This document shows, in pieces, positions 9,194 to 47,492 of a stretch of 64,000 nt of DNA; within the stretch, counting starts at the first letter, position 1; every line of letters begins with the position of its first letter. The notes under the pieces were generated by a model. That model was not told the DNA's origin. It worked only from the letters and a program-made list of their open reading frames with translations, and did no database searches. Origin of the DNA: Anadara kagoshimensis (lineage: Eukaryota; Mollusca; Bivalvia; Arcoida; Arcidae); the NCBI GenBank assembly GCA_021292105.1, contig CM037864.1, positions 7,492,635-7,556,634 of the forward strand, given 5' to 3'. The position numbers and the translations under genes are program-made.

Positions 9194-9269
9194 ATGTCGG
9201 AAATAGAGGAACTAGATTTTGACGACTTAAATGATGATTCTAAGTATTTTGACGTGGATAAATTTATAG
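9194..9269 (+). CDS. alternative first coding exon E1a (partial CDS, 25 codons + 1 nt)
   Basis: The exon opens with ATG in good context (AAAATGT, A at -3) and reads MSEIEELDFDDLNDDSKYFD plus five more residues (VDKFI). It ends with one base of the next codon followed by the perfect donor GTAAGT at 9270. The peptide is strongly acidic (about ten Asp/Glu in 25), with no signal peptide or known domain. The frame upstream has no other ATG, so this start is preferred. The donor phase (1) equals that of the exons at 17379 and 47453 and fits the acceptor of the exon at 42021, where it would encode Gly. I infer an alternative N-terminus of one gene continuing past the window end. An independent short gene or chance ATG-plus-donor pair remains possible. 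The product is not identified. Confidence 0.6.
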
Positions 9270-9513
9270 GTAAGTTATTGCATTTTTTAATAAGTTTTTT
9301 TGAATTAGACTTTTTTGGAGAATTAATAAGATGCATTTTACAAACAGAGAGAAATCTTTGGTTTTGCAAAGGCGTTAATCCAATTATTTTTTTGATAAGC
9401 AAAAGGCGCCAAACTAAATGTTGACATATGTTTCACATATGAATGCATTTTTATACATTAATTGAACAGTAAAACTCAAGTATGCCACACCGTTCAATTC
9501 CACTCCATGCCAC
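9270..9513. other. start of intron after E1a
   Basis: The E1a reading frame stays open by chance to 9424, but the sequence becomes AT-rich and loses the acidic composition after the donor, consistent with intron. Confidence 0.45.
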
Positions 9514-9790
9514 CAGGGGCAGATCATGGATTTTGTAGGGGGGGGGGGGGGGCATATGAAATGGAAGGCAAAGTTCCGAGCTATATAGGGGTGCCCATGC
9601 TCCCCTGGAAAATTTTGAACAAATGATGGAAATTGTGCATTCTGGAACAATCTAAGCTGCATTAAAAAAATAAACTTTAAGAATGTGGGAACAATTGATA
9701 AATTATCAGTGACATATAGGGCGAGTGTGTGCCCCCTACCCCTTACCCCACCCCCCCCCCCCCCCCCCCCCCCCCCCCCATCTGCCACTG
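9514..9790. mobile_element. MITE with CAGGGGCAGAT / ATCTGCCACTG ends and opposing G15 and C29 runs
   Basis: The ends CAGGGGCAGATCATGG and the reverse complement CAGTGGCAGATGG form inverted termini resembling the element at 1599-1879. Close to the left end is a run of 15 G (9538-9552), and close to the right end a run of 29 C (9751-9779), which can pair with each other. TCCAT flanks the right end directly and occurs five bases before the left end, so the exact boundary and target duplication are uncertain. Confidence 0.7.
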
Positions 9791-10344
9791 TCCATAATAA
9801 GATAATGACATAGGGTGTTCAAATATAACTTTTGGAAACAACCTTCAAAATGACATTAAAGGTCAAGGTCATGACCTACCAGAACTTTTAAATTTGTAGT
9901 TTTAGTTTTTAAACCTTATATGCATATAATGGAGATGTGCAGGACCAAAGAATTTTGATTTTGATTTTGTGAAATACTGGTATTCAAAATATATATTTTA
10001 AAAATATTCTTTTATCAAGCAAAACTAAGATGTAAACTCAATCACAAAATGAATTATTTTGTGGGATTTTGTGCTCATGTCTCTAATATGTTAGACTAGA
10101 GTGCTTGACCATTGACTGCCCAACAATGTTGACCAGGGTCAACACAACAAGCATAAGCTTGATTGAGCATGATTCAAACCAAGGCAATGAAAGACACTTA
10201 GCCTTAAGATGACAGTTACCATTAGGCCCTTTAAGTTTAAAATGAATGCATTTACTGCTTTAACCACAAAAGTCATAGCATTTATTAGCAAAATACAGTA
10301 TAACTTGTTTAGAGGCCACCCAGGGACTGTCCAAAAGTGGTTTT
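9791..10344. other. non-coding intron sequence, nothing recognised
   Basis: No exon or repeat family could be supported here, apart from short A/T runs. Confidence 0.4.
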
Positions 10345-10727
10345 TGTTGTTGTTGAATATTGCTTAAATGTTACTTTAGTAATTTTTCAGCTATTCTCGA
10401 CAAGAACTACTTCATTAATCTCTATGAATTAATCTATGAACAAGTTTGTGTATGCATGTGAAGTGGGAGTGTGTTGTATGGTCTGCCTTGTACTAGCGCA
10501 CACTCATGGGTACTTTAATGTGCTAGTTCACATAGTCAGTACGCTGCAGACAAGCGTACTACTCCCTTAGTCACATTATACTGACACTGGGTGAACCAGT
10601 AGAGGCCAACAGGAAGGAAAATTCACTTTTTCACATGTGGTCTGAGCGGGACTCGAAATCACAGTCGTGAGAGACCCTGGATTTGTAGACCAGCGTCTTA
10701 TCCATTAGGCTACCAAGGCCTCTCAAA
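10345..10727 (-). mobile_element. SINE-C, full-length copy
   Basis: It is the reverse orientation of the element at 5655. The minus strand starts with a tRNA-like head (TTGGTAGCCTAATGGATAAG, then a B-box region reading TTTCGAGTCCCGC). The body has CACATGTGAAAAAGTGAATT and CATGCATACACAAACTTGTT. The B-box is better kept than in the + strand copy. Confidence 0.87.
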
Positions 10728-10734
10728 AGTGGTC

Positions 10735-11440
10735 TTAATATTCATGTTTACAGTATAACATGTATATAAAGAACACATGGTGGACAAGCAAAAGTGGGTT
10801 TAATAGACAGAAGTTCAATATAACCTGTACAGAAAGACCACCCAGGGAATGACCAAAATTGATCTTAATAGACAGGTATACAGTATGATCTGTATATAAA
10901 GACCATCTAGAGGACTGAGCAAATGTGGCCTTTATAGAAAGATACACAGAATAGCCTGTGTATAAAGACCACCAAGGGAACAACAAAAGTGGTCTTAATA
11001 GACAGGTATACAGTATAATCTGTTTATAAAGACCATCCAGGGGACTGAGGAAAAATAGTAATAATGAATGTACAGAATAACCTGTATATAAAAACCACCC
11101 AGGGAACTGAGTAATAGTGGTCATAACAGACAGGTGGTCTTTCTACACAGGTTCTACACCTGTTTATTAAGATCAGAATTACTCAGTCCCCTGGATGGTC
11201 TTTATACACAGGTACAGTAAACCCTGCATTTAAAGATCATCCAGGGAACTGAGCAATAGTGGTCATAATAGACAAGTGGTTTTTCTACACAGGTTATATT
11301 ATACACCTGTCTATTAAGATCAGATTTACTCAGTCCCCTGGGTGGTCTTTATACACTGGTACAGTAAAACCAGCATATAAAGACTATCCTGGAACTGAGA
11401 AAAAGTGGTTTTGGTTGGCTGTTGGACTTTATATAAAGGG
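10735..11440. repeat. degenerate ~64-bp tandem array with inverted units (TACAGT-MITE derived)
   Basis: Units contain TATAAAGACCACCCAGGGAA, GTGGTCTTAATAGACAGGTA and TACAGTATAACCTGTATA. They recur near 10857, 10924 and 10988 and then in the opposite orientation near 11130-11210 and 11275-11370. The building block matches the ends of the complete MITEs at 49224-49404 and 52255-52437. The frames open through the array are a by-product of the repetition and not a gene. Confidence 0.75.
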
Positions 11441-12054
11441 TCACATACATTTCTGATTATAGAATTAAACCTACATTAAAAGGGGAGGACAATGTGTCAT
11501 GGAAGCACTGCTATTTATCTTATCATTGTGTCTCTGTCAAGAAATTAATAATTGATAAAATTTTGTTTGGTTGTAATCCCATAATCATCTGCGGCTAAAT
11601 GATTTGATAAGTATAGATCGACAAATGACATTAAAAAATATGATCTTGATGAATGTGATGACAGTTTAGCTTTCTAATTAGACCATTTGGCACAATTGGA
11701 AAAAAAAATTAATGAACTTGTTACAATAAAACGGGGAAATGTGATGAGGTTTTGGCATGATACGTAATACTAATCAGGATGTGGAAGTGTAAACTGGTTC
11801 AATAAAACGGGACAGAAATTCCTAATCATATTGACAGAGTTCACACAAACCTAAAAATTGATCCATTTTGTATTTCATCATTTCAGTTAGATGTATGATG
11901 TATGCTGAAAGACAAGTTCAATTTTCGTGTTTCTGATTAAAAAAGATTGTATTGTCACAATAATTTGCTAAATTTAGATCATTTATCTGTCAATCAGTCT
12001 TTTTATAAGATCATTTCCCTATTTTATTTTATGATGATGAAATAGCTACCAGTC
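11441..12054. other. non-coding intron sequence, nothing recognised
   Basis: No exon, repeat or motif could be supported. Confidence 0.4.
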
Positions 12055-12350
12055 TTCAGTTCTGATTTTTATACCCTGCCAATTTATATAGTTATGCATG
12101 TCTCTGTCTATGTGTCCATGTGTCACACTTGTTGTTCACACCAGTTCTCCAAAACCACCCTTCACATTTTGATGAAACTTTACAGGAATTATCAGTAGGA
12201 GGTGTTGTTACACATATAGTTTTCCTGTTTGGTTTCAGTGATTTTTCTAGGAGTTATGTCCCTTTGAATTTATTTTTTTTATAAATTCATGCTACAAATA
12301 TCTCTAGGGGTTGGGGGATTTTACTTTCACTGACAGCTCTTGTCAATATT
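12055..12350 (+). repeat. interspersed repeat M6 copy (TGTCTGTCT / GACAGCTCT type)
   Basis: The block runs from ATACCCTGCC through a TGTCTCTGTCTATGTGTCC stretch and TTTTGATGAAACTTTACAGG to GGGGGATTTTACTTTCACTG and GACAGCTCTTGT. Related blocks occur at 18690-18960 and 28130-28195. Families of this layout are common in marine invertebrate genomes, from general knowledge. No coding sequence is retained. Confidence 0.55.
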
Positions 12351-12486
12351 CGGACAGTTATTAAGCAACAACAGAGTATTTTCAATATACATGTACTAGT
12401 AAATAATTTACCAGCTCTGGTGTTTGATTGGAGATGTTCATCAAATCTGCCTTTAATTGAATACACCTAAGGTTAAAAGTTGGTTA

Positions 12487-12830
12487 TAATGTTGTTTAAC
12501 ATCACATCAGCAATTTTCCAGGTATTTGTGATGAGATTAAGAAGATTATATTAAAGAACATGTATGATATGTGTTTTTATGGTCTGCCTTATACTAGGGT
12601 GCACTCATGGTGACTTTAAGGTGCTAGCGCAATGAGCCAGTATGTCAAGCGTACAACTCCCTCATTCACATTACACTGAGTGAACCACTTGATTATATCC
12701 ATAGCCAGTGAAAGAAGCAGTATTTTTAATTAATTTTAAAATCTTATGTACCCATATGACCTGGCTGGGTTTTAGACCTTTAACCTTCAGCTCTCAAATC
12801 AGACCCTTTGCTATTGAGTCACCAAGGCAG
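12487..12830 (-). mobile_element. SINE-C, truncated and diverged copy
   Basis: It shows TGGTCTGCCTTATACTAGGG, GTGCTAGCGCA and CATTACACTGAGTGAACCAC in the SINE-C order. The head is replaced or too diverged to see. Confidence 0.7.
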
Positions 12831-12959
12831 TTAAGGAAAATCAATAACCAGCTATCAGACATTCCCTAGCTTGGATTGCAAAGTTTGTCTTACCTGAAAA
12901 ACACACCAACCACTGACATGCAAATTATTTGATCCAACCTAGTCCGAGCTACCATAATA

Positions 12960-13215
12960 CTTATATAATAAAAAACAAACATACTTATCCATATCCAAAT
13001 CACAATCTAGATGCAAAGTAAAAACTTTGAAACTGACAAATTTGGTTAAACATGTTAGTGAGACTGGGTGCTCTGGAAGGATAAGCACCTCCTGTTTAGC
13101 TAGCTACACCTGCAATGTGTGTAATCAAAATTGAGAGTGAGAGAAACATGGGACTATGTGACGTCAAATACATCCAGGGCAATCTTGGAGATGGAGACAT
13201 CATACTTATCATCTA
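12960..13215 (+). repeat. interspersed repeat R5, copy 2
   Basis: It is collinear with 1185-1460, including CTCCTGTTTAGCTAGCTACA, GTGTAATCAAAATTGAGAG and ACATCCAGGGCAATCTTGGA. Substitutions and small indels are common, so the copy is old. Confidence 0.75.
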
Positions 13216-13414
13216 TACTGTGAAGAAGTGGTAAGCTTCATTTTGCATTTGAAGAATTTGTATTGTCCTACCATTAATGTCTACAGAAATTAGGATTTTA
13301 TATAAATTCTGAATATAACATAAGAACGTTTGTACTTGTATTTAGAATTGATTTTCTAATTTATCTTACATGGTTGTAACAGGAAATGGAAGCATAGTTT
13401 TTGGTTTTTTTAGC

Positions 13415-13930
13415 CAGGATGCCTGTCTAGTTTGATCTGTTAGTTCATTATTAGGTCATTTTATCCTTAATATTTTGCATTTATTGGCTCAGAAGCTGTT
13501 GCCATTTAAGTATTTCCCATAAATTTTACTTTTAACAAGAAATTTATAATATGACAAGGTTAGCTATACATGACGGCTTTGCTGCTGTTTAGAGTCAGGA
13601 TACCTGGCTGCTATGCTTGATTCAATTATGGTCGGGTTACCAGTATAACCATTCTGCCTCTATTGAAGATGCAGGATACCTGTCATGTTTGATACGTCTG
13701 TTTAGAGTCAGGGTACTTATCATGTATGATGTGCCATTTTACTGTTAATTCTGTACTCGGTATTTTGTGATATCACTATTTCCAATTGTTGATATTATTT
13801 GAATTCATGTTTAATTCAAGTTCTGTTTAGGAATTAGAGTCAGGGTATCATGTCTACCGGATCCCTGTCATGTTTGATTCAAGTCTTCTCCTGTTTAGAG
13901 TCATGGTACTTGTTATATTTAATTGTATTA
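13415..13930. repeat. degenerate tandem repeat with GTTTAGAGTCAGGGTAC units
   Basis: The phrase GTTTAGAGTCAGG, followed by TACCTG and TCATGTTTGAT, recurs near 13590, 13700, 13838 and 13895, with a weaker form near 13420. Spacing is irregular. No coding potential. Confidence 0.5.
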
Positions 13931-15060
13931 ATTTATTGCTAAATGTTGCAGTTTTATTGGTACTTGGTAGTTTATGTACTTGAATTCAGGTGCCATTTAA
14001 GCATCATATAAATTTTTCTGAACTGACATCATAAAAAAAATGATTTCTGGGCTTTTTAGTTTATTTTTCGACCCCAGAGAAGTTTTGAGTGGCTAGAGAG
14101 CTCAAAGAAGTCTGTTAGGTGTTTTTATTCAAATATAACTGACATTTAAATATATTCTCTCTATAAAAAGTGAAGATTGACTGGTAGTGGGTTAAAATTT
14201 ATGCATCGGTAAGAGTGGAGTGTAGTGGGGTAATTACGTTTTACACTCCAGTCAAGATTCCTTTCATTGCGTGTATTTAATTATGTGTGTGTATTTAATG
14301 TCGCAGTTTTGGAAATTTAGATGTATCTGCATAGTTAAATTTTTAGCGTTTTGCACTATAACACAATAAGCATAATATAATTTTCGAACAAAACAAATGA
14401 CAGAGAAATAAGCAAAAATTAGTACTTCGTGAAAATAAATATGTTTACAGTATATTAAAGCATTTAGTTCTGGGTGGATTGAGAAAACTGAAATACATTG
14501 AGAAAGCCGCAGATTTTTGGCAATCTTGACTGGGATGTAAAATTTCAAATCACAGAGGAAACAGCCACCTTTCAAATTAAAAATGAAAGTTTGACCCCTA
14601 AAATCTAAAAAACTACAGTTATTTTAAAAAGTGAAACAATGTGGATTTAAAAATAGAATTTTAAATGAAGATTATAGAAGTACAAATATTTATTTCTCTT
14701 AGAAATTGTATTGGAACAAGGTTTTTGAAATTTATTATCAATATAGAGCAAAAATTCGAAAAAGTTGAAATATTTCAGATAAATATTTTTAACTGGAAGA
14801 ATTATGTTGTTATAAATATGTGAAATCTTAATTCTCTTGATAAATCAAGCAACATATCTTACCAGTTGTTTCAATTACAACACCCACTGAAAATATGCTT
14901 TTTTTCCACACAGAAATATATAGTTTTGGTGTAAATTAAATGAGATTATCTCCCTTTAAACAAACAAGAAATATTCCTTTAAAATAAAATCAAAATGACT
15001 GTAATTTTTGTAATTTCTGTCTTCTAAATATTTTCTCTGCACAAATGATTGTTTTAATGT
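13931..15060. other. non-coding intron sequence; SINE-B scraps only
   Basis: GAGTGTAGTGGGGTAATTAC and CAAGATTCCTTTCATTG near 14216-14262, and CAATCTTGACTGGGATG near 14520, look like scraps of SINE-B tails in opposite orientations. Nothing else could be supported. Confidence 0.4.
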
Positions 15061-15535
15061 TAAAAATTCATTGATTGAATGGTGTTTTACATCCCAGTTA
15101 TGGATATTTTGCTTATATTGAGACATTATCAGCTAAAAGTGGCAGAAATTTTAACCTATGCAGTGCACTAAGGGCAATTTGAGGTTCTTTAATGTGCCAC
15201 TAGACGTCAGTTTTTAGGTCTCTTCCAAAGGACCACTGTGACTTTCATTTCTAAATGCTGCATGCTTAGCAAAAGAACATTTACTACTGGTACTTAGTAA
15301 TACCCTGACCAAGGCTTAAACCCCAACCTTCCAACTATAGCTAGTGACATCTTGATATGAGTGAAATATTATTGACTGGGACTTAAAACCGCAGTCGATC
15401 AATCAAGCATTCATTCAATCAATCAATCAATCAAGCAAGCAAGCAACCAATCAACCAACCAAACAACCAACCAACCAATGAATCAGTCCCACATTTGAAT
15501 TGAACACTCTACCAACTGTGCTACCATAGTGGTTT
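15061..15535 (-). mobile_element. SINE-A split by a 5'-truncated SINE with (CAAT)n tail
   Basis: The minus-strand SINE-A body occupies about 15070-15340 and its head resumes at about 15490-15530 (ACACTCTACCAACTGTGCTAC). Between them lies a + strand SINE tail (TGACATCTTGATATGAGTGA, TATTGACTGGGACTTAAAAC) with a long CAAT/CAAG/CAAC simple tail at about 15395-15480. The inserted piece lacks a tRNA head, the usual sign of 5' truncation in LINE-driven insertion. Confidence 0.75.
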
Positions 15536-16310: not shown

Positions 16311-16531
16311 TGGTTAAATATGTGGAACTGAGGAAAAAAGTGCAAATTCAACTCACTCAACTATATTTTGGGTTTAATATAAGGAAGTTAGAAGAAAAAG
16401 TGTAAATTCAACTCGCTGATATTTTTTCGGTTTAATAATATTGGAAAGAGAGATAAAAAGTGCAAATTCAACTCACTCAAATATTATTTCAGTTTAATAT
16501 AAGGAAGAAAGGATAAAAAAGTGCAAATTCA
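16311..16531 (+). repeat. four tandem units of ~60-63 bp
   Basis: Each unit ends in AAAAGTGCAAATTCAACTCA or a near match (about 16336, 16400, 16458, 16520) and contains GGTTTAATATAAGGAAG. The units are diverged from each other. Confidence 0.7.
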
Positions 16532-17378: not shown

Positions 17379-17532
17379 ATGGCAGATATAGTCGAGGAAA
17401 CTTCCCACCACTCACCACCACCAGCAGCCCAAATTCACTGTAATGTTGGGCTGTCCCCACCATCTCCCCCTGGGGAGGAGCTAGTGGACCTACCCTTAGA
17501 TTTGGAGCCAGGGGACTTTGATGTGGGATCTT
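17379..17532 (+). CDS. alternative first coding exon E1b (partial CDS, 51 codons + 1 nt)
   Basis: ATG lies in a strong context (A at -3, G at +4). The peptide starts MADIVEETSHHSPPPAAQ. Its middle holds LSPPSPPGEELVDLPLDLEP and its end DFDVGS. It is proline-rich and acidic, without a signal peptide, membrane segment or recognised domain, so a disordered cytosolic N-terminus is likely. The exon ends in one base (T) followed by the perfect donor GTAAGT at 17533. The 154-nt stretch is clearly higher in G+C than both flanks, and the intron begins with a CT-rich tract. It is the best-supported coding exon here. Donor phase 1 fits the exon at 42021 and matches the other first exons, so I infer an alternative N-terminus of the same gene. 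The gene is not identified. Confidence 0.75.
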
Positions 17533-17796: not shown

Positions 17797-17850
<54 letters not shown>

Positions 17851-19081: not shown

Positions 19082-19271
19082 TCACTGGCCATGCCTTTTA
19101 TATTTTGACACTGGCCACCATCACGGTGCCAAAGCAGCGTCACTGCAACTAATGAGGTCCTAGTGTCAGTGACGCCATTGAACGGCACAATTCAGGTCGA
19201 GTTTTCAATCGGTTTGTGTGTAATTAAAGCATGCCAGGTCTTTGTTGGAACATTGTGAGCATGACCAGCGA
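19082..19271. mobile_element. MITE-M3, copy 1 (TCRCYGGCCATG ends)
   Basis: The left end TCACTGGCCATGCC and right end GCATGACCAGCGA are inverted. The interior CCAAAGCAGCGTCACTGCAA, CTAGTGTCAGTGACG and AAAGCATGCCAGGTCTTTG recurs at 26750-26938 and 49608-49786. It is non-coding, about 190 bp. Confidence 0.78.
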
Positions 19272-19712
19272 TTGGTCAATTGGTATCCCTTCAAAGTACT
19301 GTAGTGATCAGGGAGATGGTAAGTTATTCAAGGGGCATTATAATGAGGTTTTACTGTATTACAAATAAAAAAATTCTAACAAAATTAGAATAAAGATGTT
19401 ATAAGCTACCTGCCACTTTAAATGCATGATTATTTAGTTAAAAAATAATGAAACTATTCAGAGCTTACCGGTATATATTTACATTTATGGTGTTTGATTG
19501 TATTAAACTTTGTTTTAGACCAAATGAAGTTATAGGACTATAATTACATTTGCTAATGTGACGTCACTCATTTCTTGCTGACACCTATGCCTGTGACGTC
19601 ATTGATAGGCTGTTCCAGGAATTGAAATTGCATGTCTTACACGACAGTTTTTAAATTTATTTCAGGATTCAAAAACAAAAATAAGATTTTCAAAAAAAGT
19701 GAAATGTAAATA
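19272..19712. other. non-coding intron sequence, nothing recognised
   Basis: No exon was seen. A donor-like GGTAAGTTATTC at about 19319 is not preceded by a credible reading frame. Confidence 0.4.
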
Positions 19713-20935: not shown

Positions 20936-21490
20936 GATAGGAGTGAAGTGATGGAGTTTTATGCCCCAGTCAAGATTCTTTCACTTTCAGTTCTTGAATG
21001 CTGGGGAAACTAGAGTGCCCAGTATGAACCACTGACCTTCAGCAAGCAAACTGACAAATTTTCTTGCACCAGGATCTGTCCAAAGCAGGATTTAATCCTA
21101 GATAGTGACAGGCACTGTGGTCTGTTAGCACATGCTTTAGACCACTCAGCCAATGAGTTGAGTTGAGTAATGGTGTTTAACGTCCCAGTCAAGAATATTT
21201 CACTTATATCGAGACGTCACAAGCTATAGGAGAAGGTGCAGAAATTTTGCCTGTGCTTTGCGCTGATGGCATTATACAGCAGGGTTCTTCATCGTGCAAA
21301 GCCTACCAAGACACGGGACCTTGTTTATTTTAAGTTCCCATCCGAAAGAACAGTGCCTTTCATTTCGTAATGCCGAGTGCTTGGCGAAAGAACTGTCACT
21401 ACCCACTTTTAAGTCTTGGGTCAGACCCGGTCGGGATTCGAACCTAAGACCTCTCACTTACGGAGCGAGCACTCTAACTCAGCCAATGAG
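20936..21490 (-). mobile_element. SINE-B split by a SINE-A
   Basis: The tail (GAGTGAAGTGATGGAGTTTT) and body (ACTAGAGTGCCCAGTATGAA, AGCAAACTGACAAATTTTCT) lead to the head, whose minus-strand A-box region reads CTCATTGGCTGAGTGGTCTA at about 21138-21157. The SINE-A at 21158-21476 inserted into this head and duplicated its edge. Confidence 0.85.
21158..21476 (-). mobile_element. SINE-A with perfect 14-bp target site duplication
   Basis: ACTCAGCCAATGAG occurs at 21144-21157 and again at 21477-21490, exactly flanking the element. The copy has the full tail, body and most of the head (B-box region on the minus strand GGTTCGAATCC), but the outermost head bases with the A-box are missing, so it is slightly 5'-truncated. 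It is one of the least diverged copies in the window. Confidence 0.93.
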
Positions 21491-25060: not shown

Positions 25061-25429
25061 GCATAGTTGCCAAGTACTAAGTATTCATAACTGCTAAGAT
25101 AGCTTAGAGCTGCCCAGCCTTGATTGAAAAATTTGGAGTCTTGGACCTGTCCACCGGTTTGAATTTCGAACACTGGAGCCCAAACCATTCCACCTATTTT
25201 TCATCCAGTTGTATTTAAGTTATATTGGTAGCCAATCCCTGCAGTTTCGTTCATGGTGATTGATGTATAATAATTGTTGAAAATTTTCTCCTTACAAAAA
25301 TTTATAGTATCATGGTATAATTGATATATTTGTGACCATTATGTTAAACTCGTCTTAATTTTTCATTAATTTTGTAAAAAGATGAATCGTTCCTGTTTGT
25401 TCAAATTATACAATAAAGTGTTTATTTAA
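25061..25429. other. non-coding intron sequence, nothing recognised
   Basis: No supported feature. Confidence 0.35.
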
Positions 25430-26140
25430 TTTCTTTTACGTCATTTTATCACGCGCCGATTTCTGAGAAAGTCGTAACTTGTGTAAGTAAAGCTATTTTT
25501 CATTAACGACATTGACAAATCGTCGCATGTTGTGTTGCTTACATAGATGTTAACATTGTGTACATACAAGCTTGATCAATGGCCATTTGTTTCAATTGAG
25601 TCGCTACAAAAAAGAATAATATACCTGACATTCGTTATTGTATCATGTGTAAATTATTTATTTCTGTTTCTCCGTCTCAAATATAAATAATCTTATTTTG
25701 GTCAGATCATTTTTCAAAATTAAGAAATCTCAGCGGATTACTGGTGGATTAATGCGATATAAATAATTCACGGCTAAAATCTCTCTAATCATAGTAGATA
25801 GAGTAGCATTAAACTGTTTTATGTCAATGAGGTCAGCGTTGATAAATAGCCCCTTGACATCTAAAATTTCGCTTTCTTTGTAGCGATAATTGTCGGACAT
25901 CAGGCAACAATAAGCTTCATATTATTTTTTCTGATTATTTCTCAGTGATACATTTGTCTGATCAGGGATTCAAGTTATTAATTACAGATTTTGATAAAGA
26001 CTTATCACCATGTTTTGGTCGTAATGTATTTTTCTGCTATTTTTCTCAGTATGTTGCCATAACGATCAATCAACAACCAGTCAATGCCCCCTGCAAGGTA
26101 TCGCAGAAATTTTACCAAAACATGTTTTGATGTTTGGTCA
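25430..26140. other. repeat-free, CpG-richer stretch; possible regulatory DNA
   Basis: No member of any repeat family in this window occurs here. CpG sites are frequent from about 25438 to 25900 (TACGTCATTTTATCACGCGC, ATCGTCGCATG, TAGCGATAATTGTCGGAC), and a CRE-like TTACGTCA lies at 25437. A 61-codon frame at 25945-26130 lacks donor and acceptor support, so I do not call it an exon. Confidence 0.35.
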
Positions 26141-32590: not shown

Positions 32591-34079
32591 CTGGGCCAGG
32601 TTTTCAGAAAATTAGGGCCATTATTTTCTAACAAAGGGTCAATGTTATGCATTTAACATACATCAATCCATTTTATTTGAAAAACGATTGTTCATAGAAT
32701 CATAAAATCTCATATTCATGGAAAGGATACATGTCATCTGTGAAAACTTATAGTCAAATTCTAAAACAAAGAAAAGGGAGTAGCCAAGTAATAGTTTCTC
32801 AACATTCAACTGATATTGAAAAAATGGCCAAAATTGGCTCACTGATAGCATCTTTTTTTAGGGGGTTGGGGGGAGGGCTGTAGTTTTATTTTGGGGCCTA
32901 AGGCACAAGGGCCTCTCTATATTGAGCACTGTAACCCCAATTGTAATTTGCTGTTTACAATTTTTCAAATTTTGTTATTAATATCCATACAAAAGCCTGG
33001 AGGCAAACAAAGTTATTGTGGGTGTCACTTAAAGTGTAAATGACCATTAAGTAGCCATTTGACTATTGATGTAGATCAACTCTTGTGATAACTCCGGGAA
33101 TGCCACACATGGTTAGCCCCGTACCCTGACCTTAGGCTCCAACATCCAATAAATTGTTTATATGGTAGTTGAGTTATCCAACCACACCCCTACTTCATAG
33201 CTCAATAAAGATTGACAAAAATATAAAAAACTATGATATGGTCACTTATTGTAGAAAGTACATAGGTATTTGATCATAATATGTATATAATATATGTCCA
33301 ATTGAGCATGCATTATGGTTTTTTCGTTATGTGTTGTTAAGAATATCTTAAGGTTTTAAGCTTTGTATCAAGTGACTATCATAATCATTTCATTCATTCT
33401 GTTGGCAAAAAAGGACTTCTTAGAGACTGTTATGGAAGAGTTTTAATTTTAATTAATTTCTTCAGAGAAATGAAAGGTTTGTATTTTTCAAATGTATTTG
33501 ATTAGCTAGTTGGTTAATTCACTTAATTGAAATTTGAATGTTTTGGTAACTACGGTACTCTCTGACACCCCCAACTTACTATTTGCAGAAAATCATGGCC
33601 CTTCAAAACAAACTGACACAGGGTTCTGTCTTGAATGCTCTGTGAGATGTTATCCATTACTTTATGTTTTCCATTAAATAAGCAATCTTTTCAATAAAAT
33701 CTGCATTCTTGGGCTGGGCCATTTTAATGGTTATATTAGGCCCTGTTCACAATAAAAATCATCATGTTTTTTTACAAACACCAAACTGATATTCAGAATT
33801 TTAAAAAAGTATTATTAACATGTTAAAATAAATTGAAATGAAAATAAATTTGAAAACCAAACTGTTATACATGTATATCTTAGTAATTTAAGTTCATTTA
33901 AAATGTTTTCATCCATCTGAAAAAATTTAAGAGTTTTTAACAATAATGGTATTTTTAATTTTCCCTATTTTGGCCATTACACCAAAAACCAAGAAAACTT
34001 TCACTGCACAAATCAATCTATAAATCAATTAATCAATAAATTAATCAATCAGTTCATCAATCAGTCTGACTTTAATCTG
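32591..34079. other. non-coding intron sequence; short CAAT repeat at about 34010-34060
   Basis: Apart from a CAATCAAT-type simple repeat near its end and G-rich bases near 32860-32880, nothing was recognised. Confidence 0.4.
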
Positions 34080-34990
34080 ACTTTTATCTCCCACTTACGG
34101 TAAGTTTTTTAAGTGCAGCCAACAACATAAACCCAGAAATCTTTACGTAAAGGTCGTTACGATTAATCAGGTGCACGGGATAATTAGATTGAATTATATA
34201 CCAATCGGACTTCAAGAACCGACACTGCTTTGTTATCAAAACAACATTTAGACCTAAGAATACCCTTTTTAAGACCTTTGTACTTAGAGACCTGTCATTA
34301 TTACCCTCACAGATTATCCTGAGACATTCGATAATGGTCCAATTTAGGCTTTAAAAACTCCGGGAATTTAATTTGGACTGGAAATATAGTGACACAATCA
34401 ACAAGCATTTTCTAATTACCGACCCGAAAACGCATATATATTTTAAACTAACGGGACATAAAACTGTTTGAATAATCCGTTAGAAGTACATAAACATGTT
34501 ATTAGACTGGACAAAGCTAGAAACTTTCAGAGATTTAAGGACTCTGGTTTAACACCCTGTGATACAGCTCTAATTACACCTTGCATGTCATTGATTAGTA
34601 ATTCTACGTGAAATCGCAATTCTTAATTAAGATTTAAGATGTTGAATATAAGACCTTATAGAAACTATGACCGAGGCTGCATATCGGCGTAATTTACCGA
34701 CGGCTAATCTGAAGAGTTCCTCCGTTAAATCACATTCCACTATATAATTACAAAGGTCTATGTGCCAAATATTGTGACTTGTGTCCCTTGACGATTAAAC
34801 TGAATGGTCGGTTCACAGTATCAAAGGCCATTGTATAGAATTAATTTTCAATAAATTGCTTTTTGAATTCCGCTCATGGGAAAGACAGGAAGCATTGTTT
34901 TCGATTTTGTCCACTTAAATGGAAGCGAACACCGATCTGATTACTGAATTTGACCGTTTAATATGATTATAGCGTTTTCATTGCTAAATA
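34080..34990. other. repeat-free, CpG-richer stretch; candidate conserved regulatory DNA
   Basis: About 900 bases without any repeat family of this window. Sequence complexity and CpG frequency are higher than in flanks (AAAGGTCGTTACGATTAATC, CGACCCGAAAACGCATATAT, GGCTGCATATCGGCGTAATT). Many TAAT-core homeodomain-type sites are present. No open frame with splice support was found. A role as enhancer is inference only. Confidence 0.35.
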
Positions 34991-35412
34991 GTCATTTTTA
35001 GTAGCATTTTATTATTTAATTAAGATTTTATCACCATGGGTTCAAATATCTGTGATTGTCATAAGAAATATATTGATAATCCTGAAGTAGAAATTGGTTT
35101 GATATTTTGAAACTAAAGTAAAGCAACTTCACACATTTTCTTTTAACGAATACTGAACGCAGTGAACAATGAAACCTTGATTCATCGCTATGGTTATTTA
35201 AGTGAATTTTTAGTGTAATAAAAGGGGTTAACTGGTAATTAGAAGGAGACTATTAAAAAAGCAGATTTTTGGACTTAAAATTTGGTAGCACAAAGTTAAG
35301 TGGCAAAGTAATCAAGGGGCATTAGAATGAGGTTTTATAAAATAAAAACCTGGGTATATCAGTTATCCATACAGCAAAAAAATGCATTCTTTAAAGAATA
35401 TTTGAGCCAGGA
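34991..35412. other. non-coding intron sequence, nothing recognised
   Basis: No supported feature. Confidence 0.35.
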
Positions 35413-37560: not shown

Positions 37561-37589
37561 CTCCTCTCTTGCAACCCAATCACTTCATC

Positions 37590-38994: not shown

Positions 38995-41584
38995 TGGCTA
39001 CTAGATTGTCACAGTACAGTAAAACCTGGTTACAAGGCTCCTAGATTGTCACATTACAATAAAACCTGGTTACAAGGCTCCTAGATTGTCACAGTACAAT
39101 AAAACCTGGTTACAAGGCTCCTAGATTGTCACAGTACAGTAAAACCTGGTTACAAGGCTCCTAGATTGTCACAGTACAGTAAAACCTGGTTACAAAGCTC
39201 CTAGATTGTCACAGTACAATAAAACCTGGTTACAAGGCTCCTAGATTGTCACAGTACAGTAAAACCTGGTTACAAGGCTCCTAGATTGTCACAGTACAAT
39301 AAAACCTGGTTACAAGGCTCCTAGATTGTCACAGTACAGTAAAACCTGGTTATAAGGCTCCTAGACTGTCACAGTAGAGTAAAACCTGGTTACAAGGCTC
39401 CTAGATTGTCACAGTACAGTAAAACCTGGTTACAAAGCTCCTAGATTGTCACAGTACAATAAAACCTGGTTACAAGGCTCCTAGATTGTCACAGTACAGT
39501 AAAACCTGGTTACAAGGCTCCTAGATTGTCACATTACAATAAAACCTGGTTATAAGGCTCACATTGTCACAGTACAGTAAAACCTGGTTACAAGGCTCCT
39601 AGATTGTCACAGTACAGTAAAACCTGGTTACAAGGCTCCTAGATTGTCACAGTACAGTAAAACCTGGTTACAAGGCTCATAGATTGTCACAGTACAGTAA
39701 AACCTGGTTACAAGACTCATAGATTGTCACAGTACAGTAAAACCTGGTTACAAGGCTCCTAGATTGTCACATTACAGTAAAACCTGGTTACAAGGCTCAC
39801 ATTGTCACATTACAGTAAAATCTGGAAAATAGGCTCCTAGATTGTCACAGTACAGTAAAACCTGGTTACAAGGCTACTAGATTGTCACAGTACAGTAAAA
39901 CCTGGTAAATAGGCTCCTAGATTGTCACAGTACAGTAAAACCTGGTTACAGGGCTCCTAGATTGTCACAGTACAGTAAAACCTGGTTACAAGGCTCATTG
40001 ATTGTCACAGTACAGTAAAACTTGGTTACAAGGCCTCTAGACTGTCACATTACAATGAAACCTGGTTACAAGGCTCCTAGATTGTCACAGTACAGTAAAA
40101 CCTGGTTACAAGGCTACTGGATTGTCACAGTACAGTAAAACCTGGTTACAAGGTCTCTAGACTGTCACATTACAATGAAACCTGGTTACAAGGCTCCTAG
40201 ATTGTCACAGTACAATAAAATCTGGAAAATAGGCTCCTAGATTGTCACAGTACAGTAAAACCTGGTTACAAGGCTACTAGATTGTCACAGTACAGTAAAA
40301 CCTGGTAAATAGGCTCCTAGATTGTCACAGTAGAGTAAAACCTGGTTACAAGGCTCATAGATTGCCACATTACAGTAAATCCTGGTAAATAGGCTCCTAG
40401 ATTGTCACAGTACAGTAAAACCTGGTTACAAGGCTCCTAGATTGTCACAGTACAGTAAAACCTGGTTACAAGGCTCCTAGATTGTCACAGTACAGTAAAA
40501 CCTGGTTACATGGCTACTAGATTGTCACAGTACAATAAAACCTGGTTACAAGGCTCCTAGATTGTCACAGTACAGTAAAACCTGGTTACAAGGCTCATAG
40601 ATTGCCACATTACATTAAATCCTGATAAATAGGCTACTAGATTGTCACAGTACAGTAAAACCTGGTTACAAGGCTCCTAGATTGTCACATTACAATAAAA
40701 CCTGGTTATAAGGCTCACATTGTCACAGTACAGTAAAACCTGGTTACAAGGCTCCTAGATTGTCACAGTACAGTAAAACCTGGTTACAAGGCTCACATTG
40801 TCACAGTACAGTAAAACCTGGTTATAAGGCTCCTAGATTGTCACAGTACAATAAAACCTGGTTACAAGGCTCCTAGATTGTCACAGTACAATAAAACCTG
40901 GTTACAAGGCTCCTAGATTGTCACATTACAATAAAACCTGGTTATAAGGCTCACATTGTCACAGTACAATAAAACCTGGTTACAAGGCTCCTAGATTGTC
41001 ACAGTACAGTAAAACCTGGTTATAAGGCTCCTAGATTGTCACAGTACAGTAAAACCTGGTTACAAGGCTCCTAGATTGTCACATTACAATAAAACCTAGT
41101 TATAAGGCTCCTAGATTGTCACAGTACAGTAAAACCTGGTTACAAGGCTACTAGATTGTCACAGTACAGTAAAACCTGGTTACAAGGCTCCTAGATTGTC
41201 ACATTGCAATAAAACCTGGTTACAAGGCTCCTAGATTGTCACATTGCAATAAAACCTGGTTACAAGGCTCCTAGATTTTCACAGTACAGTAAAACCTGGT
41301 TACAAGGCTCCAAGATTGTCACATTACAATAAAACCTGGTTACAAGGCTCATAGATTGTCACATTACAATAAAACCTGGTTACAAGGCTCATAGATTGTC
41401 ACAGTACAATAAAACTTGGTTACAAGGCTCCTAGATTGTCAAATTGCAATAAAACCTGGTTACAAGGCTCCTAGATTTTCACAGTACAGTAAAACCTGGT
41501 TACAGGGCTTCTAGATTGTCACATTACAATAAAACCTGGTTACAAGGCTCCTAGATTGTCACAGTACAGTAAAACCTGGTTACT
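38995..41584. repeat. 40-bp satellite, about 65 head-to-tail copies
   Basis: The monomer reads CTAGATTGTCACAGTACAGT then AAAACCTGGTTACAAGGCTC, exactly 40 bp. Most copies differ at one to three positions. The main variants are GTACAGT versus GTACAAT or TTACAAT. A 38-bp variant (GGCTCACATTGTCAC) is scattered through the array (for example near 39558, 40711, 40793, 40953). A segment beginning AGGCTCCTAG at 39831 and running to about 39920 is repeated at 40231, exactly 400 bp or ten monomers away. A GACTGTCACATTACAATGAA variant recurs 120 bp apart near 40040 and 40160. There is no coding capacity. The array lies in the intron just before exon E2. Confidence 0.97.
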
Positions 41585-41880
41585 TTAATAGATTGTGCAC
41601 AATTCAGATGCAATGCCCATGTTATGATAGGTGTAGGATAAAAAAAGTAGTATAAAAATCATTGCTGTAACTGTACTGCAGAGATACATCTGTAACATTA
41701 CTTATAGCTGGTAAGATCTTGATATAAGTGAGATAAATTAACTTGGATGCAAAACACTATGCCCATTAACTGCATTTAATTCTGTTGGGACCAAAGCCGC
41801 TTAAGCCATCAGAGCTTCTTCATGGGTATAAAATTTGGATGGAAAACATCAGTTCATGTGCCCATTAACAAGAATTGATG
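41585..41880 (+). repeat. intron sequence with a SINE-A tail fragment
   Basis: TTATAGCTGGTAAGATCTTG and ATATAAGTGAGATAAATTAA at about 41683-41735 match the + oriented SINE-A tail region. The rest is unremarkable. Confidence 0.5.
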
Positions 41881-42020
41881 TTGTAGTGTCTTCCTATTTT
41901 TCAGGAGATGAGCACCCAGACTTTCATTAATATTTATGTTGTAGTGTCTTCCTATTTTTCAGGTGAGGAACACCTAAACATTTACTAGCATTAATTTTGT
42001 AGTGTCTTCCTATTTTTCAG
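41881..42020 (+). promoter_or_regulatory. tandemly triplicated splice acceptor (58-bp unit) in front of exon E2
   Basis: TTGTAGTGTCTTCCTATTTT followed by TCAG starts at 41881, 41939 and 41997, exactly 58 bp apart, giving AG at 41904, 41962 and 42020. Each is followed by a version of the exon start (GAGATGAGCACCCAGAC, GTGAGGAACACCTAAAC, GTGAGGAGCACCTAGAC). In the gene's reading frame the first copy meets TAA and the second TAG within nine codons. Only the third stays open. The two upstream copies are therefore decoy or poison acceptors if they are ever used. Confidence 0.85.
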
Positions 42021-42089
42021 GTGAGGAGCACCTAGACAATCAGACATTGACTCTTAGCACGGATGTCGAAGATGAAAATGCCAATCAAA
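42021..42089 (+). CDS. internal cassette exon E2 (69 nt, phase 1-1)
   Basis: A strong polypyrimidine tract and TTTTTCAG precede it, and it ends in A followed by the donor GTAAGT at 42090. With one incoming base it reads (G or C) EEHLDNQTLTLSTDVEDENA NQ, where the first residue depends on the upstream exon: Gly after E1a or Cys after E1b. It is acidic and probably disordered. No domain is recognised. Because 69 is divisible by three and both borders are phase 1, skipping it keeps the frame, as expected of a cassette exon. Exon E1c lies downstream and must bypass it. An alternative view, that it is a chance open stretch between splice-like sites, is less likely given the matching phases. Confidence 0.7.
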
Positions 42090-42379
42090 GTAAGTCTACT
42101 ATTATGATTATTATTATTATTGGATGTCCAGTTCAGACATGTCTAATATTGGTGTGTCATCCAGATATTAATATCTCATCAGGGCTTTATCTGCTGGAGT
42201 GTTGGCTCATGTAGAGAAATAATGTTTTTTTGAATTATGGAGAGCCATTCTTGGCATAATGATGGGTAGACATGTGCTTGGTCATTGAAGAGAAATAATG
42301 TGTTTTATGAATTATGGAGAGCTATTATTGGCATAATTATAAGCAGACGTATGTTTGCTCATTGTAGAGAAATATTTCA
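42090..42379. other. start of intron after E2, with a local repeat
   Basis: GAGAAATAATGTTTTTTTGAATTATGGAGAG-type sequence recurs (near 42213 and 42290), a diverged ~75-bp duplication. Confidence 0.4.
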
Positions 42380-42790
42380 TATATGAATGAATGAATGAAT
42401 GAATGAATGAATGAATGAATGAATGAATGAATGAATGAATGCTACATTGAATTGAATGAATAATTGAATGAATGTTACATTAATGAATGAATGAATGCTA
42501 CATTGAAACGAATGAATGAATGAATGAATGAATGCTACATTGAAACGAATGAATGATTGAATAAATGAATGAATGTTACATTGAAATGAATGAATAAATG
42601 AATAAATGAATGAATGCTACATTAAAATGAATGAATAATTGAATGAATGAATGTTACATTAATGAATAAATGAATGCTACATTGAAACAAATGAATGAAT
42701 GCTACATTGAAATGAATGAATTATTGAATAAATGAATGAATGCTACATTGAAATGAATGAATGAATAAATGAATGAATGAATGAATGCTA
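42380..42790 (+). repeat. (GAAT)n microsatellite interspersed with GCTACATTGAAA
   Basis: Long runs of TGAATGAATGAATGAA are punctuated every 40-70 bp by GCTACATTGAAA or GTTACATTAATG. The composite unit was expanded several times. Confidence 0.92.
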
Positions 42791-42959
42791 CGTGGAAATT
42801 GAATCATTAGGTGCTAGCTTGGTGTAGTTGGGTGTTTGGTTTGGTGCAATGATTTATTATTTATATTTCAAGAAATATATATTCAAAACAGATGTTACCT
42901 ACAATTTATTGATGATTTTTTCATAAACTTGGAGATAACACGATTAAGAGAATTGAAAA
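42791..42959. other. spacer, nothing recognised
   Basis: No supported feature. Confidence 0.3.
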
Positions 42960-43265
42960 AATACAAATAGAATACCGGTACCTGCAATCTGGTGTTTTCA
43001 TGGGGAGTAAGCCAATATTTAGAATACCAAGAATTCTGGCAATATGATTGGTGTCTTTCATCAACCGGGGAGTAAAACCAATATTTAGAATACTGAAAAA
43101 TACCTGCAATCTGATTGGTGTTTTCATAAGATGGGGAGTAAGCCAATATTTAGAATATCAAGAATAGGTATTTTATCATAAACTAGAGAGTAAACCAGTA
43201 GTTGGAATATCTGCAATCTGATTGGTGTTCATCATAAACTGGGGAGTAAGCCAATAATTAGAATG
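42960..43265 (-). repeat. ~60-65-bp tandem repeat, about five units
   Basis: Units contain CTGCAATCTGATTGGTGTTT, CATAA-TGGGGAGTAA and GCCAATATTTAGAATA. GGGGAGTAA recurs near 43001, 43068, 43133 and 43240. Overlapping frames of 68-83 codons on the minus strand are produced by the repetition. Confidence 0.75.
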
Positions 43266-44092
43266 CTGAAATTAAATCCATAGATGTTTGGGTGTCTTTG
43301 ACAAGTATTCTAACATGTTTTGAAGACATTTGTCATGTTTAATCCCTCACCAACTTGACAAAATCTGATAATTCTCTTTTATTACTTAAGAAAAACAGAT
43401 TATTTTGAAGTGTATTATGTGGTATTTGCTCACAAATCTTGATTAACTGTCAAATATGTGAAACATGAGGGAGGTAAAAACAACACCTTAGCTCTTAGTT
43501 TGCACCCCACAGGAATATCCAAAATTAATGGAGACATTTCAGTTTGCAATTTGTCAATACATCAGTAAAAATTGTCACCTTTTTTCATTTATAATTTAAT
43601 GGTATAATTTTATATGTAAGTTGTGGGAACTGTTATGAGATATTAAAAAAGGGATTTATTAGATTACAAGTTACATAGAATGAAAGAGTATTACTGCTTA
43701 TTGACTTTAATGGCCCCGGACGTAGATTGAAGTCATTTAAAAACTGAACAAAATTTTATCAAATAATTCTGATGACATGTGGCCAAGTGGTTATAAGACT
43801 ACAGACACATTGTTCAAAAAACAGTAACAGTGGTAGATTGTCCGTCATGAAACTGGGAGGTTGTGGGTTTGAGCCCCAGCCTGGTCATGTATAAGACATT
43901 AAAATTCAGAAATTGCTCCCTGGCCTAACACTCTGTATTAAGAGGACACAGTATAGACTGGCTCACCCTGTGTCAGTATATTGTGACTAGGGAAGTGGTA
44001 TGCATTAAAACAAAAACATAGTCCCAAAGTCACTTATCTAGAGAGCTAAAGATGAAATTTTAGGTAATGCACTTATGGCAATATATAATGTT
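43266..44092. other. non-coding; SINE head of mixed type at about 43835-44000
   Basis: CTGGGAGGTTGTGGGTTTGA with GCCCC is a tRNA-like B-box region. GGCTCACCCTGTGTCAGTAT and TGTGACTAGGGAAGTGGTA after it match the SINE-C body. It is a chimeric or diverged copy in + orientation. Confidence 0.5.
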
Positions 44093-44345
44093 AGGAGTAG
44101 AGTAATAGTGTTTTAGGTTTGGAACAATATATTTTATTTATATCAAGGCATTCATTTCTGGGATGGTAGAGGAAACTGGAGTACCTGTAGAAAACAATTA
44201 ACCTTCGATAACAAACTGACAAACTTTTCTCACAATTAATGATCTGCAAATCATAGCTTATGGACTAATCATTATTTTACTAGGGAAGGATTTGCCATAG
44301 TGGGGTTTGAACTTGGGCTAGGAGAGGCACTGTGTGAGCTATGAA
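44093..44345 (-). mobile_element. SINE-B copy
   Basis: GGAGTAGAGTAATAGTGTTT, GGATGGTAGAGGAAACTGGA and GTTTGAACTTGGGCTAGGAG preserve the order tail, body, B-box on the minus strand. Confidence 0.75.
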
Positions 44346-44887
44346 GCTGGTGCTTTTAATGAATCTGGGCTCGTTATCATGACCGAGCATGAACTGTAGA
44401 TCTCATCTGAAGGATCCCTATGTTTTGTGATTGTTTTAATTGTGAATAAAAGTACATATGTTAGTTATTTCAATGCTTGGAATACAATTAAAATGCTATA
44501 TTTACGCCACTTCATAATGGCTTCACAGTTTAATATACAAAACTGACAAATACATTTTCAAAACTGAAATAAAATGCAGGTGCTTCGAATACAAAATCAC
44601 TGGCATTTTAATTCATTAATAGCAGTCCAAATACCGGTACATGTGTACATATATATACAAAAACTGACATCCCCATAATGTACCACAGATTGCTGTGATA
44701 GAGACAACATTTCTGATAGGAATATCAAGTATCCTATCTATAGAAACTGTTAATATTTTTGTGTCATTATCAGTTGACCCCTCCTGATCTAATCAAAGAA
44801 GGACAATAGTGGACAATTGATAAAACTCGAGACACCTCGTCTTATGTGTGTAGATGAATACTCATGGACATGTCTTACATTTTCATG
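44346..44887. other. non-coding intron sequence, nothing recognised
   Basis: No supported feature. Confidence 0.35.
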
Positions 44888-44965
44888 GTTTCCAATAATT
44901 AAGAATTATTAGTAGACAACTTTACAAAATTTGTGAAAATAAAGTCTGTTTTAAGTATTTTACAA
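44888..44965. mobile_element. MITE-M1 left-half fragment
   Basis: TGGTTTCCAATAATTAAGAA, TTATTAGTAGACAACTTTAC and AATTTGTGAAAATAAAGTCT match the first half of the family. Confidence 0.65.
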
Positions 44966-45250
44966 TAGGGACCAGTTGTTCGAAACTTGATTATAATTTA
45001 ATCAATTGATTATTTGAAATTTGATTTTTGCATAATTTTTTTTTCTAATATTTTGTGAAATTAACGTCGAAAATTTCGGAAATGGATTGAATTTTTTTAA
45101 AGTCAAGAACATTGTTATAAAAATGTTGATTTAATAATGATGCTTTGGATTTTGTTTAAAACTTTGAATTTGTGTTAATCACTGAGCTTTGTACAACTAG
45201 ACACAGATATGCTGAAATAGGTTAATGTCAGAATGAGCATATTGCAAAGG
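44966..45250. other. non-coding, nothing recognised
   Basis: No supported feature. Confidence 0.3.
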
Positions 45251-45412
45251 CTAGGTTTCCACAAATTTAAAATTATTAGTAGACAAATTATTAAAATTTG
45301 TGAAAGTATAGTCCTTTTAAGATATAAAAATAGGTTAAATTTTAAAAGAATTTCTCAGAAATTACATTGTAGTAGCCAATGGCGATTTTGGCTATCAGGA
45401 TTGGAAATATAA
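45251..45412. mobile_element. MITE-M1, copy 4
   Basis: AGGTTTCCACAAATTTAAAA, TTTGTGAAAGTATAGTCCTT and GGCGATTTTGGCTATCAGGA are collinear with the copy at 3889. Confidence 0.78.
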
Positions 45413-46139
45413 CATTTTACTTAGTTATGTGGCGTACACTTTATTGCTGATTATGTCCAAAGGTGGTCTACGCGTATTTTTGAACTTCTCAGCATTGCCT
45501 TTAGCATGACACACCTGGAACTCAGTTTTATGTCTTATCAGAAAGACTATCATTTTAAGCTTTTTATCGCTCCATTATTGGTAAGAGATGAAAACCCTCA
45601 CAGTCTGAATTGAGGTTTGAACACAACCCTTGATTAGATATAGTTTCTATCATTTTTCATATTCAGTTCATATATATTGTTTGAAATTTTTTTTTGAACA
45701 GCTAAAACAGGTTTTAACTTTTTGTAATTTTACCACTTTTCTGTAGTTCTGTCATGCTGCGTAAAATTTTTAAGAGCATTAGAGATTTTGGGTATCAGGT
45801 GGAAGGAAGAAAGATTCTTACTGTGCTGAGTCTTAAGAAGATATTTGAAATGTCATGCCTGCTAAGTTTCCTAATGTAGGCAGATTTCTCACAATTTAAT
45901 CTTCATCTTTAACTTCCCTCTCAGTACAATGTGAAAAATTATGATATTATAATATAATGCTATAGATACTTAAATATTTTTCTGTAACTTTTATTATACC
46001 ATGATGTCACCATGATGTCATTATGATGCAAAATCAGTTGATTTTTCATTTAAAGCAATTATGCAAACTTTATTTTTATGATTATATAACTGAGTAAATA
46101 AATAATCGGAAAACTAAATTTTTGAAAGTGTCAGATCCA
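45413..46139. other. non-coding intron sequence, nothing recognised
   Basis: A short ATGATGTCACC duplication lies near 46000. Nothing else was seen. Confidence 0.35.
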
Positions 46140-46640
46140 CCTTATCATACCTACTCCTTTATTTTGGTGTATCAAAGGCACCTTACCATAACTTCCCCTT
46201 TATTTAGGGATATCAGAGACACCTTATTATACCCATACATACACCTTTATTAGGGGATCACAAGCACCTTACCATAACTACTCCTTTATTTTGGAGCATC
46301 AGAGACACCCTACCATAACTACTTCTTTATTTGGGGGTATTAGAAAAACCTTATCATACCTACTCGTTTATTTGGGGTATCAGAGGCACCTTACAATATC
46401 TACTCCTTTATTAGGGGATCACAAGCACCTTACCATAACTACTCCTTTATTTTGGAGCATCAGAGACACCCTACCATAACTACTTCTTTATTTGGGGGTA
46501 TTAGAAAAACCTATCATACCTACTCCTTTATTTGGGGGTATCAGAGGCACCTTACCATATCTACTCCTTTATTAGGGGATCACAAGCACCTTACCATAAC
46601 TACTCCTTTATTTTGGAGTATCAGAGGCACCTTATACCTA
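46140..46640 (+). repeat. ~40-bp tandem array with a ~161-bp four-unit higher-order repeat
   Basis: Units read roughly ACCTTACCATAACTACTCCT then TTATTTTGGAGCATCAGAGGC. The block starting GGGGATCACAAGCACC at about 46255 is repeated at about 46416 and again begins at about 46574. Inside, the same variants (CAGAGACACCCTACC, then GTATTAGAAAAACC) follow in the same order. The 62- and 98-codon frames arise from the repetition. Confidence 0.88.
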
Positions 46641-47387
46641 CTCCTTAGCAGAATTTTTGTGATGTGCCTACAGAGATCAAATCAGTATGATTCAGTTCAA
46701 TTTGCAAAACAAACAAGTTGGGGAAAAAAATCTGAGCTGACTTTCTAAATTATAACCCATGTGTATTACGACACTGTATGATTGTTGTCGATATTCGTAA
46801 TTGGCAGAAAATTTGGTTTTTAGTTGTAGAGGAAATAATGTGCACCTGATGTGGCATATCAACCCCAGTCTTACGGAGGGTTCGGTGATAATTACTTGTC
46901 TAATTGGGTGTACTCTGTCGATTTCATCTGACGTTTCTGAAAGAGACTGATTCCAAGGGGATATCAGGCTTATAATTTCAAACTTATCCCCCTGCAAACT
47001 CTGGTATTATAAAACCTTTTTCATTATTCAGTTTTATCTTACAAGTTATTGATGAAAGTCAAACAAGCTCCCCCTTACCGATACGTCAATTGGACTGCGC
47101 CAAAGTTACATTTTTATAACAATGTGAGTATTAATTGGAAGGTATCGAGAACCAGAACAGAGTTCCCATATGTTTAGAATTCCACAATTAAGCTCTGATT
47201 AATCATTCATACTTCCTTTATTTCTCCTATTTCACAAAGTATATACGGCTTATTACAATGAAGTGGGTATTAACTCAACATAATTAGGAAGGGAGAATTA
47301 GCCTTGTACATATAGCTCTTTACTTTAACATAGCATTAGATATTTAAAGAAGAAGAAAAACGTAAGGCTGTCTCGAGAAGAAAACGT
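46641..47387 (+). other. repeat-free region upstream of exon E1c (putative promoter side)
   Basis: From about 46740 no repeat family is seen, and complexity and CpG are higher (TTGTCGATATTCGTAATTGG, ACCGATACGTCAATTGGACT with a CRE-like ACGTCA). It is the likely location of the promoter for E1c, but this is inferred from position. Confidence 0.35.
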
Positions 47388-47429
47388 ATGATATCAGAGC
47401 TGAAATATCTGAGTATTTGTTTGTTATAA
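47388..47429 (+). other. short upstream open reading frame before E1c
   Basis: ATG at 47388 opens a 13-codon frame (MISELKYLSICLL) that stops at 47427-47429, 23 bases before the E1c start. If included in the 5' UTR it could dampen translation. No conservation data are available. Confidence 0.35.
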
Positions 47430-47452
47430 ATTGTTGATAATTGTTTACAAAT

Positions 47453-47492
47453 ATGACTGAAACTACGACAGAACAACCCGTAGAGAACACAG
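47453..47492 (+). CDS. alternative first coding exon E1c (partial CDS, 13 codons + 1 nt)
   Basis: ATG with A at -3 opens MTETTTEQPVENT, then one base (G) and the perfect donor GTAAGT at 47493. The peptide is short, Thr/Glu-rich and has no targeting signal. The three-codon repetition of Thr is unremarkable. The donor phase equals that of E1a and E1b, so it can replace them on the same downstream frame. Since it lies 5.4 kb downstream of E2, transcripts from here would lack E2. The exon is short enough that chance cannot be excluded on its own, and the case rests on the shared phase and clean local sequence. The common downstream exon was not found before 64000, so the following intron would exceed 16 kb. 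Confidence 0.55.

Follow-up and report, generated by a model that had tools for sequence, protein, structure and literature searches.

To which gene do three possible first coding exons and one cassette exon belong that lie on the forward strand of a 64,000-nucleotide window from the bivalve Anadara kagoshimensis (C8:7492635-7556634; contig CM037864.1)? The window is the whole stretch of DNA that was analyzed; the next 200 kb was also examined, and downstream coordinates continue the window numbering. An initial annotation of this DNA had read the exons, named E1a, E1b, E1c, and E2, as parts of a single gene with at least three promoters and one common acceptor beyond 64000, the gene itself being left unrecognized. 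Here, we report that the four exons are most probably the 5' exons of a gene for a LIM-only protein (LMO) of the LMO1/3 (Beadex/dLMO) type, with at least three inferred promoters, in which E2 is an optional insert. We assign this reading a probability of roughly 0.88.

Three first exons and a cassette exon share one phase

E1a (9194..9269, + strand, 76 nt) reads MSEIEELDFDDLNDDSKYFDVDKFI followed by G and stops at the phase-1 donor TAG/GTAAGT (the slash marks the cut); acidic residues make up 10 of the 25 residues of its peptide. E1b (17379..17532, + strand, 154 nt) has the phase-1 donor CTT/GTAAGT, the weakest among the four window exons, and codes for 51 residues, including 9 prolines. E1c (47453..47492, + strand, 40 nt) reads MTETTTEQPVENT followed by G, with the phase-1 donor CAG/GTAAGT. 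E2 (42021..42089, + strand, 69 nt) begins and ends in phase 1, i.e., 1-1; it starts with GTGAGG and has the donor AAA/GTAAGT. The ATG of each first exon has an A at -3 and no in-frame ATG further upstream, and an in-frame stop lies 75, 48, and 12 nt 5' of the ATG of E1a, E1b, and E1c, respectively. The borders, the common phase, the GTAAGT donors, and the favorable placement of the three ATGs, all claimed before, agree with the sequence on checking. In the genome search, the 151-bp E1a segment, the E1b segment, and the E2 segment were each found in one place.

The exons join a downstream LMO gene in frame

Three exons of an LMO gene are located on the same strand, 58 to 63 kb past the window end. 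The exon scan gave a LIM-type exon at 126497-126686 (+ strand), the third LMO exon, which ends with the stop TAG; the motif search gave the two preceding LMO exons, i.e., the common exon at 122480-122702 (+ strand; start C8:7615114), entered in phase 1 through the acceptor ttttcag/GTCCAATG, and the second exon at 123332-123457 (+ strand). For the 3' border of the common exon, of two adjacent bases the frame-keeping one was taken, the alternative leading to stops. A phase-1 exon is thus present where a common acceptor beyond 64000 had been postulated, and all five possible joins to it (E1a, E1b, E1c, E1a+E2, and E1b+E2) are open, in line with the earlier claim that any phase-1 first exon can be joined in frame to E2 or to a downstream exon. 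The junction codons after E1a, E1b, E2, and E1c are GGT, TGT, AGT, and GGT. That E1c transcripts lack E2, as had also been proposed, follows from the order of the exons. The predicted proteins are 204 (E1a), 227 (E1a+E2), 230 (E1b), 253 (E1b+E2), and 192 (E1c) residues long.

The shared core carries two tandem LIM domains (Pfam LIM, 2 stretches, 8.6e-28). LIM is the sole family that Pfam finds on the 227-residue predicted protein and a homeodomain is not among the matches, as is characteristic of LMO proteins. The best solved relatives of the core in the PDB are LMO2 (4e-48) and LMO4 (5.5e-45); the top five PDB sequences are all LMO2 or LMO4, and Lhx3 and Lhx4 rank behind. The core is 71% identical (102/143 columns) to the human LMO1 sequence used for the comparison. 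With these matches, the formerly nameless gene is recognized as LMO. We also searched the genome (1.115 Gb, 36 contigs) for further copies: at least 31 matches were listed, three of which are the LMO locus itself (75-97% identical) and 28 of which are at 50% identity or below. Among the matches listed, the LMO locus has no other close counterpart in the genome. Proteins of this family act as dose-sensitive adaptors in LIM-homeodomain networks, and binding of the predicted protein to LDB1/Chip is expected from its family membership.

If all four exons are used as proposed, the distance from E1a to the stop of the LMO gene would be about 117 kb, and transcripts would start at E1a, E1b, or E1c, with at least three promoters. 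Splicing would connect each first exon, across an intron of 75 to 113 kb, with the common LIM exon (122480), and E2 would be inserted optionally when transcription begins at E1a or E1b, the two upstream starts. The product would be an LMO adaptor in which the two LIM domains stay constant while the N-terminus, probably disordered, changes with the promoter; each N-terminus would probably have its own tissue or stage. The exon borders, their phases, the open reading frames, and the LIM core are read from the sequence, whereas the three promoters are inferred from the three ATG exons, and transcription of the exons and any effect on the protein are predictions. Three coding starts and an in-frame cassette that resembles a recursive-splice (RS) exon would give a single LIM core several N-termini; this is probably one animal gene making several differently headed proteins.

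Alternative starts in known LMO genes

The first exons of human LMO1 code for few residues, and we know of no RS cassette in that gene. Human LMO1 is driven by two alternative promoters (PMC3677138) and is, in its alternative starts, similar to the locus described here. The Drosophila Lmo gene, as described in PMC529317, produces three or more transcripts from three alternative first exons, depending on the promoter used; some 30 kb separate RA-1 from RB-1 and RC-1, and RB is predicted to carry 71 additional N-terminal residues. For Drosophila Beadex, a ratchet point and an RS-exon in the 5' untranslated region have been proven by mutants, and weakening of the rebuilt donor led to full inclusion of the RS-exon (PMC8605326). 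Since fly Lmo has three first exons and human LMO1 two promoters, the layout of alternative starts is of a known kind. Our locus, like Drosophila Lmo/Beadex, would be an LMO gene whose first exon comes in three versions; however, all three versions are coding here, and the RS-like exon leaves the reading frame intact. None of the papers listed in our literature searches on LMO alternative first exons or recursive splicing concerned this animal group. Alternative LMO starts are already known; what is new, as far as these searches show, is the combination of three coding first exons with an in-frame RS-like cassette that has three acceptors.

E2 has tandem acceptors and starts like a donor

How would E2 be spliced? 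Its 5' end is part of a tandem array (41865..42038, + strand) of three 58-bp copies, each with an identical 24-nt TTGTAGTGTCTTCCTATTTTTCAG acceptor; the array is found in one place in the genome. The open E2 is reached only from the acceptor of the third copy, and copies 1 and 2 lead to in-frame stops. The pyrimidine tract, the AG, and the next G form 25 consecutive columns that are invariant across the three copies, while 13 of the 33 other columns vary (permutation p 0.0026); selection, gene conversion, or luck could be the reason. Copies 2 and 3 read AG/GTGAGG, and the acceptor therefore abuts a donor. As scored with splice-site matrices that, like our codon weights, are generic and hand-written rather than trained on this species, both the AG/GT site of the second copy (41961..41964, + strand, cut after 41962) and the start of E2 reach 13.0 as an acceptor and 12.8-13.0 in the donor reading, and a start of this kind is a trait of RS-exons. 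A 40-bp satellite with 65 copies (38996-41583) ends about 280 bp 5' of the acceptor array.

In recursive splicing, an exon starts with a donor; splicing it to the preceding exon re-creates a donor, in competition with the one that belongs to the exon itself (PMC8605326, PMC6224609, PMC5126111). We are less sure of this part of the proposal, i.e., that E2 may act as an expressed RS-exon, in which case the donor rebuilt at the first-exon/E2 junction would compete with that of E2, resulting in skipping or inclusion. Among the 457 sense AGGT sites in 126.7 kb, copies 2 and 3 score highest (12.8), to be counted as a single event and not as two independent sites, and the third is at 101521 (11.4); the best of the 468 antisense AGGT sites reaches 9.2. 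Random sequence (200 trials) gave 0.06 AGGT sites at 11.4 or above and none at 12.8, a null that overstates the case for E2 because true acceptors score well regardless, so that only the GTGAGG start is surprising. The ratchet-point-like site at 101521 (L005 position 7521, + strand), which reads tcatctttctctgattacag/GTAAGTAAG, is located in the LMO intron, and its segment is found in one place in the genome. A donor-like site (7.3) follows 312 nt beyond, as an RS-exon would require.

With the generic matrix, the rebuilt donor scores 10.2-10.3 for E1a (TAG/GTGAGG) and 6.4 for E1b (CTT/GTGAGG), and the own donor of E2 scores 8.0-8.1. By the rebuilt-donor rule of Beadex, these scores predict that E1a transcripts would skip E2 and E1b transcripts would keep it. 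An extended model, which we consider unlikely in its entirety, would have promoter choice set the fate of E2 by way of the three terminal bases of the first exon, i.e., the strong donor of E1a leads to skipping and the weak one of E1b to retention, with the tandem acceptors as retained decoys or ratchets; recursion of the long 5' intron would be old in LMO genes and common with Drosophila Beadex. The locus would offer a natural test of whether the final first-exon bases decide the fate of a cassette, and it raises the question of whether LMO introns were spliced recursively before insects arose.

Inclusion of RS-exons in the vertebrate binary switch is reportedly set by cryptic promoters. In that switch, reported by Sibley et al. 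2015 and as told in PMC5126111, the rebuilt donor is set against the exon's own, and RS-exons are said to carry stops; the competition proposed here is similar, but E2 keeps the frame. Among fly examples, m1 and m2 of Ubx are expressed RS-exons of 51 nt in a 73-kb intron, with the donor regenerated at their start (PMC8605326). E2 is likewise a short exon with a donor-like start in a long intron; in contrast to m1 and m2, it has three tandem acceptors and two preceding first exons with rebuilt donors of unequal strength, and its recursion is a prediction only. Donor strength is described as insufficient to account for all cases of recursive splicing in the fly (PMC8605326).

About even odds should be given to another explanation, in which E2 is an ordinary cassette or a constitutive exon and its GTGAGG start is coincidental, or in which the exon junction complex blocks recursion. 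According to PMC6224609, no dinucleotide begins exons more often than GT, and annotated human exons that start in this way number in the hundreds and are retained through repression of recursion by the exon junction complex. When the threshold is relaxed (8 and 8), four sense AG/GT sites are counted in the window against 1.84 expected, and one antisense site. Set against this are the scores at the start of E2 (acceptor 13.0, donor 12.8), which are near the top of the scale and were matched by 0 of 200 null sequences, and the further ratchet-point-like site downstream in the same intron.

How far the exons stand out from chance

The preferred reading, with all four exons as the 5' end of LMO, was also weighed against random sequence. 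GTAAGT occurs 10 times on the + strand of the window; 4 of the 10 end an ATG-started open frame of at least 40 nt, and all four frames are in phase 1, the fourth (19231-19318) overlapping a dispersed repeat. First-exon candidates were ranked by donor plus coding score, with A or G at -3 and outside tandem repeats. E1b (22.3), E1c (18.5), and E1a (17.8) are the top three on the sense strand, followed by 13115-13230 (17.3), which is in phase 2 and overlaps a dispersed repeat. Random third-order sequences (n=60) contained on average 0.05 first-exon candidates per sequence at 17.7 or above, and the score of E1b was reached in none of the 60. Among internal-exon candidates, E2 ranks first (31.1; equalled in 0/60 null sequences). 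The coding score is equalled or exceeded in 2.4% of open windows for E1a, 0.2% for E1b, 0.5% for E2, and 2.1% for E1c.

Several observations weigh against this reading. Of 200 trials with random sequence, 20.5% contain three or more phase-1 frames, and the bare pattern of phase-1 ATG exons is within chance. First-exon scores on the antisense strand go up to 19.7 (a glycine-run frame), and one open window that is not an exon outscores E1b in coding (17.2 versus 15.7). Relaxed CpG depletion is seen near E1a (95th percentile) and, to a small degree, near E1c (81st); the surroundings of E1b lack it (61st). In the search for other genes described below, the family searches covered the sense strand only, and stretch L007 (114-124 kb) was covered by the exon scan and motif search only. 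What settles the reality of the four exons in our analysis is that the downstream LMO gene joins them in frame.

Could only a subset be real, e.g., E1b and E2 as LMO exons and E1a or E1c as a chance ATG frame before a GTAAGT? We think this rather improbable, even though E1c has just 13 codons, the coding scores of E1a and E1c are modest, the chance frequency of three phase-1 frames applies here as well, and E1a and E1c are unproven by score alone because the antisense strand reaches 19.7. The three first exons are nevertheless the best three sense candidates, at a score where the null mean is 0.05, and all of them are in the sole phase that fits the LMO exon.

Other genes between the exons and LMO

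That the exons come from another gene, ending before LMO or sitting inside an LMO intron, is very unlikely: the gap of 75 kb from E1c to the LMO exon and the coverage of L007 without family models leave it some room, but the sense strand in between, where scanned, has no PDB match and no Pfam family above cut-off other than YidD, which is satellite, the phase and the junction codons are those that LMO needs, and the fly and human LMO genes have comparable alternative starts.

In the sense frames of 2401-62402, no Pfam family was above its cut-off except YidD, the matches of which are frames of the 40-bp satellite; matches to DUF928, PT, and PRIMA1 were under their cut-offs. The PDB search of the tail frames gave no match at E 1. 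Downstream, Pfam gave none at E 0.1 in stretches L002, L003, L004, and L006, and stretch L005 had no PDB match at E 0.1. No RNA families or tRNA genes were found in the scan of the window. In viral contigs, a copy of the satellite was not found, and 62 stretches fit the E1b+E2 peptide pattern, none of which (0/62) is a relative. The calcium channel beta subunit has a similar layout, with large N-terminal introns and exclusive N-termini; however, the motif KxSDSG...FIRQ of its exon 1b (PMC3972191) is missing from the E2 translation, and the PDB match of E1b to this subunit (E 1.7) is noise. AMPK gamma was rejected; the motif sought for it was not found in the window.

Other features of the window

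At 2200-3000 of the window, the CpG observed/expected ratio is about 1.25, compared with 0.35 overall, and ETS-like, YY1-like, and CRE-like words are seen by eye; this promoter-like stretch might serve as a distal non-coding start of LMO, or belong to a neighboring gene. Three AT-rich stretches with preserved CpG (25200-25900, 34000-35100, and 58300-59100) contain many TAATTA/GATTAG-like words by eye and may be unmethylated enhancers within the LMO gene. The repeats of this animal look molluscan. Tandem arrays of 84 bp and 60 bp occupy 54243-54763 and 62390-63028, and each can be read through in multiple frames; the long open reading frames in them are no evidence of genes. Copies of a dispersed repeat family, about 75-87% identical and in both orientations, occur at 423-623, 4379-4725, 7060-7413, 21152-21476, 63055-63394, and other places.

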